This document shows, one piece after another, positions 302 through 12,184 of a stretch of DNA of 41,896 nucleotides; the first letter of the stretch is position 1; every line of letters starts with the position of its first letter. Made by a program: the position numbers and the translations under genes. The notes below the pieces were generated by a model, which did not search any database, was not told where the DNA came from, and worked only from the letters and a program-made list of their open reading frames with translations. Source of the stretch: Bacteroidota bacterium (GTDB lineage Bacteria; Bacteroidota; Ignavibacteria; UBA10030; UBA8401); assembly GCA_013361065.1 (NCBI GenBank), contig JABWAK010000014.1, positions 1 through 41,896 of the forward strand. Reading direction: 5' to 3'.

Positions 302-1576
302 TTATTTCTTCGGTTTCAGCCGCTCGAACTCGTTGACGTTGCGTTTCTGAGCCTCTTCGATGGGATTGATCCCCTTCCGCTGAGCAGCCGCCGCCACCCG
401 TTCCTCGATCGTCGGGATGATATCCGCTTTGATCAGGATGATGAGTTCGCGGGTGATCTCGGAGGTCTGATCGAATCCGAAGATGTACTTCAGACCGAAG
501 ACCCACCACGGAAGGTCCTTCAGGATCGGGATACCGCCGCGCGTCACTTCCTCGCTGGTGAAGTACAGACCGCCGATGACGGTCTCTTCACCGTCGAAGA
601 GCACGGAATAGGTCGACGCGGTGGTCTTGGCGATACTCCCGTCCGCCTGTGCGGAACTGTTCTCCGCCATCACTTCCAGATTGATGAACTTGATCCCCTG
701 CTCCTCGTACACGGTCGGCTTCACATTGATGATGATACCGGACGAGATGGCGGTCTTGATCACGTTCCCGGAGAAGTCCTTCGTATCGATATAGATATCA
801 TTGCCGACCTGGATGCGGCCCGGCTTGCCGGAGGAGACGGTCACCGACGGATTGGCGAGCACATCACCAAGACCGGTGCTGGAGAAGAACGACATGAGCG
901 CGGAGATGTTGGCGAAGGCATTCTTCGGTGCAAAGCTGGCCAGGAATCCGACCGCCGTGTTCTGGCTCCCCCCGCCCCCGCCGGTGGTGGTGGTGTTCGG
1001 GTCCTTCACACCGCCGAAGAACTGTCCGCCGAACTTGGTCGTATCGGCTGATTTGTCGCCGTAGAGGAAATTCCAGTTGATGCCGGCATTGAGGGATTTC
1101 TGGACGTTCACGCTGAAGAAGATGGAGGAGATCTTGACGTCCCGCTGCTGCATCAGGAACTTGCCGGTGGTATCGGCAGCGGCCTTCGGCACCATGCCGG
1201 TGCCCGACGAGGTCATGGTCTTCCCGGAGGAATCCTTCACGGCATAGACATAGAAGAACTCCTCACGCTCATCGTACCACATGCCGTTCGTCTTCAGGAT
1301 GTTCTCGAACGCTGCATACCAATAGGTGTTCTCCACATCGACGCCGATCGGCTTCTTGTTACTGCTCACGTCGACGATGATCTTGTTCATGTACTTCTTG
1401 CTGAAGTCGCTGAACAGCAGCATCGCCTTGTCGAACGGCAGCGATTTGGAGATCGAGACGAGCTCTTCCGGCGAGACGTACTCGTTCAGATACATCCGCT
1501 TCTCGCGGTTGGTCTGCGCCGATGCGGCTGCCGCGAGCATCAGGATGCACAGGATGATAGGCAGGATACGGTTCAT
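302..1576 (-). CDS. pilQ: Type IV pilus secretin (PilQ/GspD family), short form
   Basis: Signal peptide; secretin-domain features (VLANPSVTVSSGKPGRIQVGNDI, GIIINVKPTV, LFDGEETVIGGLYFTSEEVTRGGIPILKDLPWWVFGLKYIFG, ELIILIKADII); in a T4P operon. Confidence 0.85.
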   Translation of the reverse strand: MNRILPIILCILMLAAAASAQTNREKRMYLNEYVSPEELVSISKSLPFDKAMLLFSDFSKKYMNKIIVDVSSNKKPIGVDVENTYWYAAFENILKTNGMWYDEREEFFYVYAVKDSSGKTMTSSGTGMVPKAAADTTGKFLMQQRDVKISSIFFSVNVQKSLNAGINWNFLYGDKSADTTKFGGQFFGGVKDPNTTTTGGGGGSQNTAVGFLASFAPKNAFANISALMSFFSSTGLGDVLANPSVTVSSGKPGRIQVGNDIYIDTKDFSGNVIKTAISSGIIINVKPTVYEEQGIKFINLEVMAENSSAQADGSIAKTTASTYSVLFDGEETVIGGLYFTSEEVTRGGIPILKDLPWWVFGLKYIFGFDQTSEITRELIILIKADIIPTIEERVAAAAQRKGINPIEEAQKRNVNEFERLKPKK

Positions 1577-2475
1577 TGGAGGTCGTCCTTCTCTGAATTC
1601 TCGAATTGAATGGTCAGGCGCTTGGTCCGCTGGATCCCTCCGTCGTTCAACACGAACTCCACCACGCCTTCCCGCGGAATGATATTGGTCACTTTACCGA
1701 GGAAGACCTCGTCCCCCACCTGCAGCGTGATCAGCTTCCCTTCTTCGTTCATCACCAGCGCTTTGCCGTTGGCGGTCGCCTTCAGCGATACACGGTCCAC
1801 ATCGACGAGCTTCCGGGGGTTGGCCGGGGTCCGCTGGAGGATGCTGGGCTGGAACGGATTGGACATGATCGGCTGCGGCGCAGAATCGGGACGCATCACC
1901 GGCATGCCAAGGGTCGCTTCGCTGGTGAAGTAGGCCTCGATGTCCATATCGTACTGCAGACTGATCTGCGGGCGCTCCAGCGAATCGGCGCCGGTCTCGC
2001 TGCTGACCAGGACCAGATTCCTGATCTTGTACAGCTTCCGTCCGTTCTCGAGCAGCCAGATGAACCGGAAGATGTTCGGGAACTCCGATGTCCCGGTGAT
2101 CTTGTAGGTGTTGTAGCCGATGGTCCCTTCGTTCTTGGTACCGGTGAGTGCCAGGTTCATCTTCAGCTGCTGTGCACCGCTCTCGTCGATGATGTCGCTC
2201 AGGTAGCCGTACGTCTGCGATGAGACATCGGAGGCGGAGATCTCCTTCACGCGGTTGTTCCACCGGTGGAGGGTTTCCCGCAGTTTCGCCTGGTTCTCCT
2301 CGATGGCCGCCAGCTGTGCCGTGTTGTCCTGCAACTGCGCTTCGATCTTCTTGGCTTCCTTCAGGTTCGCCGCGATCTTGTTCGGCTGATAGAACATGGT
2401 GATGTATCCCCCGAAGAGGGAGACGACGAGGATGATCACCGCCAGTGCTATGGTATTTCGAAGTTTATAGGACAC
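1573..2475 (-). CDS. Type IV pilus alignment protein, PilO-like with C-terminal PilP-like domain
   Basis: N-terminal TM, coiled coil, PilO-like region, then PilP-like segment KALVMNEEGKLITLQVGDEVFLGKVTNIIPREGVVEFVLNDGG; between the secretin and PilM/N genes. Confidence 0.7.
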   Translation of the reverse strand: MSYKLRNTIALAVIILVVSLFGGYITMFYQPNKIAANLKEAKKIEAQLQDNTAQLAAIEENQAKLRETLHRWNNRVKEISASDVSSQTYGYLSDIIDESGAQQLKMNLALTGTKNEGTIGYNTYKITGTSEFPNIFRFIWLLENGRKLYKIRNLVLVSSETGADSLERPQISLQYDMDIEAYFTSEATLGMPVMRPDSAPQPIMSNPFQPSILQRTPANPRKLVDVDRVSLKATANGKALVMNEEGKLITLQVGDEVFLGKVTNIIPREGVVEFVLNDGGIQRTKRLTIQFENSEKDDLQ

Positions 2476-2483
2476 GGTGCTCC

Positions 2484-11742: not shown

Positions 11743-11765
11743 GCGGGCAGGTAGTTCCTGCCCGC
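11743..11765 (-). terminator. Intergenic hairpin between the two pilin genes (possible attenuator or processing element)
   Basis: GCGGGCAGG-5 nt-CCTGCCCGC, 9-bp perfect stem; reverse strand followed by GCTCTTTATCC (weak U-tract). Confidence 0.5.
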
Positions 11766-11782
11766 ACCACTATTGGATCCTA

Positions 11783-12184
11783 TTACTCAACCTGCGAGAT
11801 GGTGTAGGTGGACGGAGCAACCGTCACCATGTGCACCGGCAACACTCCGCCGGCACCTTCGGTAGCACCGGTTCCGACGAACACGATGGAGGTAGCAGAC
11901 GGGGTACCATCGACGCTATAGGTAGCATTGTCATTCGTTGCAACAGCCTGGCCGACCAGAACGGTCACTGCCGTGATGCCTGCGAACGAATTTCCGCCGC
12001 CGCCGAGGGACGCGGGTTTACGGTAGTACTGCTGTGCTTTGGAAGCAAGGTTCACCAGATCTGCGGTCATTGCATCGCGGCTTGCGCTGAGAGCGTTGTC
12101 CTGGAACATGGTGATACCGACTGCGACTGCGATACCCACGATGATGACACCGAGGATGATCAGAAGCAACTGTTGCTGGCCCAT
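11783..12184 (-). CDS. Major pilin-like protein, copy 1
   Basis: MGQQQLLLIILGVIIVGIAVAVGITMF...KAQQYYRKPASLGGGGNSF; SD AAGGAG correctly spaced from ATG; in-frame TAA just upstream. Confidence 0.68.
   Translation of the reverse strand: MGQQQLLLIILGVIIVGIAVAVGITMFQDNALSASRDAMTADLVNLASKAQQYYRKPASLGGGGNSFAGITAVTVLVGQAVATNDNATYSVDGTPSATSIVFVGTGATEGAGGVLPVHMVTVAPSTYTISQVE

Follow-up and report, generated by a model that had tools for sequence, protein, structure and literature searches.

Leaderless pilins in a type IV filament locus of Ignavibacteria and other bacteria suggest a lineage without prepilin peptidase

The window considered here, 41,896 nucleotides in length, is one whole contig (C246; JABWAK010000014.1) of the 3.8 Mb draft genome of a Bacteroidota bacterium of the Ignavibacteria (288 contigs, 97.6% complete). 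The open reading frame list and profile searches recover, between positions 302 and 12184 of the minus strand, every pilus part that an earlier note on this sequence had named. Read from 12184 towards the contig end, the operon encodes two pilins that start with Met-Gly (MG), PilC, PilB, three MG-start minor pilins, a PilT-family ATPase, fused PilM-N and PilO-P proteins, a short secretin and the start of a lipoprotein. It is complete save for this last gene, which is lost at the contig end. All genes described below as parts of the operon are on the minus strand.

Major pilin A (positions 11783–12184, 133 aa, MGQQQLLLIILGVII...) and major pilin B (11298–11708, 136 aa) are the paired MG-start pilins described earlier and are 55% identical; 7 and 5 open codons, respectively, precede their ATG codons. 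The AlphaFold model of pilin A predicts a helix over residues 2–55 and four strands (pLDDT 90.5), and thus displays a type IV pilin fold. Its top PDB match is the full-length PAK pilin (TM 0.62), and the first seven matches include three other pilins, with Foldseek E-values that are weak. The inner-membrane platform protein PilC/GspF follows at 9771–11189 (T2SSF, E 1.9e-32); it is matched by both GspF and PilC models and scores best with GspF. The PilB-like extension ATPase (7962–9749) has a strong T2SSE match (E 1.4e-95), and its 412 bits against the T4aP PilB equivalog TIGR02538 are far under the cut-off of 675.65.

The MG-start minor pilins are likewise present as had been noted. Minor pilin 1 (7343–7879, MGLGQTLLTIM...) has an N-terminal hydrophobic helix and a position that is kept in relatives. 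Minor pilin 2 (MGSQTILDLIAS...) is at 6687–7331, and minor pilin 3 (5443–6678, MGRSAIYMVMG...) is long and PilX-like in place and size, with weak DUF4900 and bactofilin matches that are both under cut-off. The last two are also recognized as open reading frames with counterparts in relatives. The PilT-family retraction ATPase (4048–5307) has an altered Asp box (ASPVE) and passes the PilT/PilU family cut-off narrowly (TIGR01420, 319.6 vs 319.1 bits); its best PDB match is the Aquifex PilT (E 2.6e-87).

The fused alignment proteins are borne out in their PilM, PilN and PilO parts. The PilM-N protein (2484–4043) matches Myxococcus xanthus PilN in a profile search (E 6.2e-9), and the best PDB matches of its AlphaFold model are Pseudomonas aeruginosa PilM (E 4e-14). 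The PilO-P protein (1573–2475) matches M. xanthus PilO (E 2.2e-4); its other half gave no match confirming PilP in the profile search, and is putatively PilP by its position. The secretin (302–1576, 424 aa; Secretin domain, E 1.4e-22) is the sole secretin found in the host genome. It is short, as claimed, and relatives are similar in length (398–445 aa). The glycine-rich insert that the earlier note had also listed is, however, not a feature of the system, as only the copy in the window has it among 22 secretins compared, and it must be considered local to this genome. Against the T4aP PilQ family TIGR02515 the secretin scores 55 bits, under the cut-off of 284; it scores best with MshL/GspD models, and its best PDB matches are GspD.

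The downstream lipoprotein is present at 1–211 with a lipobox (LGIFSC), broken off by the contig end. A lipoprotein of 459–955 aa is found after the secretin in many relatives (L067, L068, L101, L104, L110, L118 and L058, where it lies at 15023–17887). The L058 homologue, of 955 aa, is the one that was scanned, and it contains Ig-like Big_1 and Invasin_D3 domains. These lipoproteins are candidates for a surface adhesin or a pilus-associated protein.

The operon is real and is conserved as a unit. When the PilT alignment is used to scan genomes, 80 loci are recovered, from Ignavibacteria, Kryptonia, KSB1, Latescibacterota, Coatesbacteria and others, and the closest PilT relatives are in metagenome-assembled genomes labelled Bacteroidota or Ignavibacteriae. 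Gene order is identical in all loci on sufficiently long contigs, except that a few have the minor pilins on the opposite strand. All 80, being loci found by means of PilT, have a PilT-family ATPase in the operon. The operon is also seen on short contigs of assemblies labelled Acidobacteria and Coatesbacteria (L086, L125).

A survey of 297 sampled genomes of the phylum shows that pilins and PilT occur together. The system PilT is found in 102 genomes at a threshold of E<1e-100 and in 104 at E<1e-20, the two extra matches (G170, G174) being weak and belonging to another ATPase. A profile of the MG pilins matches 101 of the 297, with 100 common to the PilT set; thus the co-occurrence survey proposed in the earlier note finds both together in 100 of the 103 genomes that have either. 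In the phylum of the Latescibacterota locus, the pilin profile matches 7 of 64 genomes.

Of major interest is the N-terminal end of the pilins. All 62 related major pilins compared start with Met-Gly, and the start is MG[QTSN]QQ or nearly so. Residue 5 is Gln in every one, with no acidic residue at positions 2–24 and no Lys or Arg at positions 1–10. Canonical mature pilins have a glutamate at position 5 (F-T-L-I-E); Glu5 is absent from all 62. Known class III leaders are 6–26 residues in length (PMC4471445). The reading frames of the major pilins have a median of only 4 open codons before the start codon and then a stop, which leaves no room for such a leader, and a cleavable class III signal peptide of at least six residues is absent from all 62. 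Misplaced start codons were considered as an explanation and rejected, because the stops are so near and an alternative in-frame start lies upstream in just two of the 62. A Shine–Dalgarno-like site is found just before the start in 46.

These pilins are not readily seen by standard annotation. No Pfam family covers the related major pilins, with 8 of 51 matching the minor pilin ComP weakly; Pfam-based annotation therefore misses them. A profile search of the host genome finds no N_methyl pilin domain and no canonical pilin.

The minor pilins, by their sequences, point to the initiator methionine as the entire leader. In minor pilin 2, an aspartate is residue 6 of the reading frame in 24 of 36 homologues (MTVMLDIIGA, MSTLLDIIGAF, MATFLDII, MGVWIDLIG) and residue 8 in 11 (MGSQxxLD etc.), among which is the protein of the window. 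With the methionine removed, residue 6 would become position 5, the place of the canonical Glu5. Methionine aminopeptidase accepts Gly, Ala, Ser and Thr as residue 2, and one of these is residue 2 of minor pilin 2 in 33 of the 36. In minor pilins 1 and 3, residue 2 is frequently Asn or Phe, and the methionine would stay. It should be pointed out that in many minor pilin 1 and 2 proteins neither Gly nor Ala precedes the helix (MTVMLDII, MSTLLDII, MSSNQTLL), and a PilD-type cleavage site is hence absent.

The host genome contains a second, paralogous set on two other contigs (C31:4575–6773, L036, and C77:1141–3027, L035). The end of C31 has PilC and the start of PilB, and C77 has the end of a PilB and two leaderless minor pilins (MGFGQTML... 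and MGVIIDIIG...), the latter with Asp at residue 6, as in most minor pilin 2 homologues. In the tree, the PilB fragment of this set groups with the additional PilB that L076 and L104 encode ahead of their pilins. The fragment on C77 adjoins a foreign-looking, high-GC sequence with a transporter-like frame (C77:1–1110), possibly as an assembly chimera.

The enzyme that would cut a leader also appears to be missing. No Peptidase_A24 is found in the host genome, either by the standard profile or by a lineage-specific A24 profile. In the phylum, A24 above cut-off is absent from 91 of the 102 genomes with the system (two of the 91 have sub-threshold matches) and present in 11; searching with a profile made of A24 proteins from this phylum returns the same 11 genomes. 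As a replicate, A24 is absent from 43 of the 50 whole genomes behind related loci. Of 19 A24 loci examined in system-bearing genomes, 14 have a canonical prepilin with a leader (e.g. ...VQEGFSLTELMVALVII) nearby; these 14 loci are separate from the MG-pilin operon and lie mostly beside a GspE-like ATPase in a T2SS-like locus. The peptidase thus tracks leader-bearing pilins and not the MG system. In the other five (L154, L165, L178, L180, L181), no canonical prepilin was recognized near A24. Conversely, approximately 28 genomes (family f24 of the phylum sample, e.g. L182, L183, L184) have A24 and neither the system PilT nor MG pilins; no canonical prepilin was recognized near A24 in three f24 loci examined.

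The acidic pair ED of the PilT Asp box is replaced by AS, GS, SS, GA or AA in 78 of 80 relatives (L054–L133), which confirms the Asp-box defect noticed in the window and shows that it is no decay of a single gene; PilB keeps ED or EE. The alignment shows Walker A, Walker B, the GE[ML]RD motif and the His box of PilT to be intact. With Walker A, GE[ML]RD and the His box in place, the enzyme is probably active, and it may work differently.

In phylogenies, the PilT proteins of the system form their own clade on a long stem next to known PilT (support 100/100), and the PilB proteins a well-supported clade of their own, also on a long stem. The other assembly ATPases, i.e. T4aP PilB, GspE and the T2SS-like ATPases of the phylum, group together (97/94). 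Approximately unbiased (AU) tests reject a joint clade of the system PilB with GspE of the proteobacterial T2SS (p = 0.023) and do not reject one with T4aP PilB (p = 0.156); a joint clade with the Cytophaga-type T2SS ATPase gives p = 0.138. Removal of long branches did not settle the placement of PilB relative to T4aP. The Tad, T4bP, Com and archaeal ATPases were left out of the tree and compared by HMM and PDB scores, which are far under those for PilB/GspE. On these ATPase sequences the MG system is a distinct lineage, whose sister group the tree does not fix. Two orphan PilB/GspE-like ATPases elsewhere in the host genome (C225:5200–10516, L034) are interspersed with genes for response regulators and zinc-ribbon proteins; neither a platform protein nor a pilin is encoded close to them, and they fall outside the MG PilB clade.

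The earlier note had proposed that T4aP-like machinery is combined here with non-canonical subunits and that the system may be a lineage not yet described, and had called for phylogenies of the machinery; all components falling within ordinary T4aP, with canonical pilins elsewhere in the genome, was to count against it. PilB and PilT form their own clades and the genome has no canonical pilin, so that this is not the pattern found and the proposal holds, although a grouping of PilB with T4aP PilB is not rejected. The interpretation is thus borne out in part: a distinct lineage stands up, but the implication of the MG starts, i.e. no leader and no peptidase, had been missed.

With T4aP, the MG system shares PilB, PilT, PilC, PilM/N/O/P, a secretin and the pilin fold. 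It differs by having no class III leader, prepilin peptidase, N_methyl domain or Glu5 in its major pilins, as well as by the PilM-N and PilO-P fusions, the short secretin, the long PilB branch and the altered Asp box of PilT. The Cytophaga-type T2SS of Bacteroidetes (CHU_3191–3202) is similar in the broad bacterial group and in having a secretin, an ATPase, a platform protein, pilin-like subunits and distant PilM/N/O/P-like proteins. However, that machine includes an A24 peptidase, CHU_3197 (PMC5553014), and its type in the phylum has leader-bearing prepilins and a different ATPase clade; because of the A24 gene and the separate clade, membership in this type is rejected. Denise et al. (2019; PMC6668835) report numerous 'generic' systems among type IV filaments, and in their work the Cytophaga T2SS falls together with T4aP.

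The mitochondrial T2SS (miT2SS) also is a type IV filament-like machine without the peptidase, GspO, but its GspG retains a large extension at the N-terminus, which is probably processed (PMC10128026). This machine differs further in that it is eukaryotic, the extension is thought to be cut by another protease, Glu5 is kept and minor pilins are missing. By its published description, a related bacterium, Melioribacter roseus, is also comparable; its 2013 genome paper reports pilT, pilQ, pilB and pilC, with pilA and pilD 'not found', and reads these as a probably incomplete set (PMC3534657). In the MG system the pilins are identified as leaderless and the missing peptidase is general. Leaderless pilins, or a bacterial type IV filament without prepilin peptidase, were not found described in the open-licence literature. 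Reviews count the prepilin peptidase as one of the few components common to type IV filament systems (PMC4471445), and one calls its activity essential in bacteria and archaea (PMC10128026). Of the hallmarks of the superfamily, the T2SSE extension ATPase, the T2SSF platform protein and, by the model, the pilin fold are present here, and A24 and the class III signal peptide are absent.

Taking the above together, we consider it quite probable that the operon represents a type IV filament lineage without prepilin peptidase, in which the leader has collapsed to the initiator methionine and methionine aminopeptidase replaces PilD. The pilins would be made without a leader and inserted N-in. Methionine aminopeptidase would then remove the Met before a small residue 2, always Gly in the major pilins, and produce the mature N-terminus; this would apply to the major pilins and to most minor pilin 2 proteins. 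As removal of Met would expose the mature end, neither PilD cleavage nor PilD N-methylation would be needed. In place of a charged leader, the uncharged polar start (QQQ) and a flank beyond the helix that is mostly acidic might set the N-in/C-out topology. We infer that PilB and PilC assemble a filament of leaderless major pilins, that the three leaderless minor pilins probably serve as its tip or priming complex, and that the filament passes the PilM-N/PilO-P alignment complex and the short secretin to the surface; PilT may retract it. The outer lipoprotein would be made from the same operon.

Could a cleavage still take place? Perhaps the leader is minimal, two residues (Met-Gly), and is cut after the glycine by an unrecognized peptidase that is not of the A24 family. 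Gly is the classical residue before the prepilin cleavage site, and Gly2 is invariant in the 62 major pilins. Gly2 is equally expected, however, if an aminopeptidase must remove Met, many minor pilin 1 and 2 proteins have no Gly or Ala to cut after, and the gene neighbourhoods of relatives reveal no conserved candidate peptidase gene in the operon; such a cleavage therefore appears unlikely. That an A24 peptidase exists and was missed, owing to draft genomes or to divergence too great for the profile, seems the most far-fetched of the alternatives. The host genome is indeed a draft, and certain A24 members of the phylum score weakly, but the absence extends over both genome sets, with closed genomes among those sampled, the phylum's own profile adds nothing, and the pilins have no leader for such an enzyme to cleave.

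An ordinary T4aP with cosmetic sequence drift would accord with a PilT that just meets its family cut-off and with the AU result for T4aP PilB. It is rejected on the absent leader and absent peptidase, and is very improbable also in view of the missing N_methyl domain and Glu5, the low TIGR02538 score, and the fused alignment proteins and short secretin that are kept across phyla. A different question is whether the machine is mainly a secretion system with a short, T2SS-like periplasmic endopilus, a proposal that concerns function and is compatible with leaderless pilins. The GspF-like PilC and the MshL/GspD-like secretin favour this, whereas the PilT-family ATPase of every operon, the two or more major pilin genes and alignment proteins of the PilM-N and PilO-P type do not; it is a possibility, albeit a rather doubtful one.

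It is likely that a lineage across the Ignavibacteria/Kryptonia group and other phyla has lost the class III leader as well as the prepilin peptidase, with a housekeeping methionine aminopeptidase exposing the mature N-terminus. As the pilin subunits start directly at the mature end, bacteria of several phyla appear to build filaments without a leader-cutting enzyme. If so, type IV filaments can do without a component regarded as universal to them, and searches that rely on prepilin signatures miss such systems. Such a lineage would allow the requirement of assembly, namely a mature N-terminus located in the membrane, to be told apart from the route by which that end is produced, and it would offer a natural experiment on the roles of pilin N-methylation and Glu5. 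It would also explain the 'probably incomplete' pilus set described for a genome of the group (PMC3534657).

Two other regions of the window are of interest. Directly upstream of the pilins, at 12359–20187 on the minus strand, are genes for membrane proteins, two of which have C-terminal TPR repeats and one of which weakly matches mannosyltransferases (PMT_2, Alg9-like). In L056, L058 and L059, too, the pilins are preceded by a large membrane protein of similar type. These proteins are candidates for pilin glycosylation. Beyond them, at 20280–22250 on the minus strand, is a Matrixin-like metalloprotease with a type IX secretion C-terminal sorting domain.
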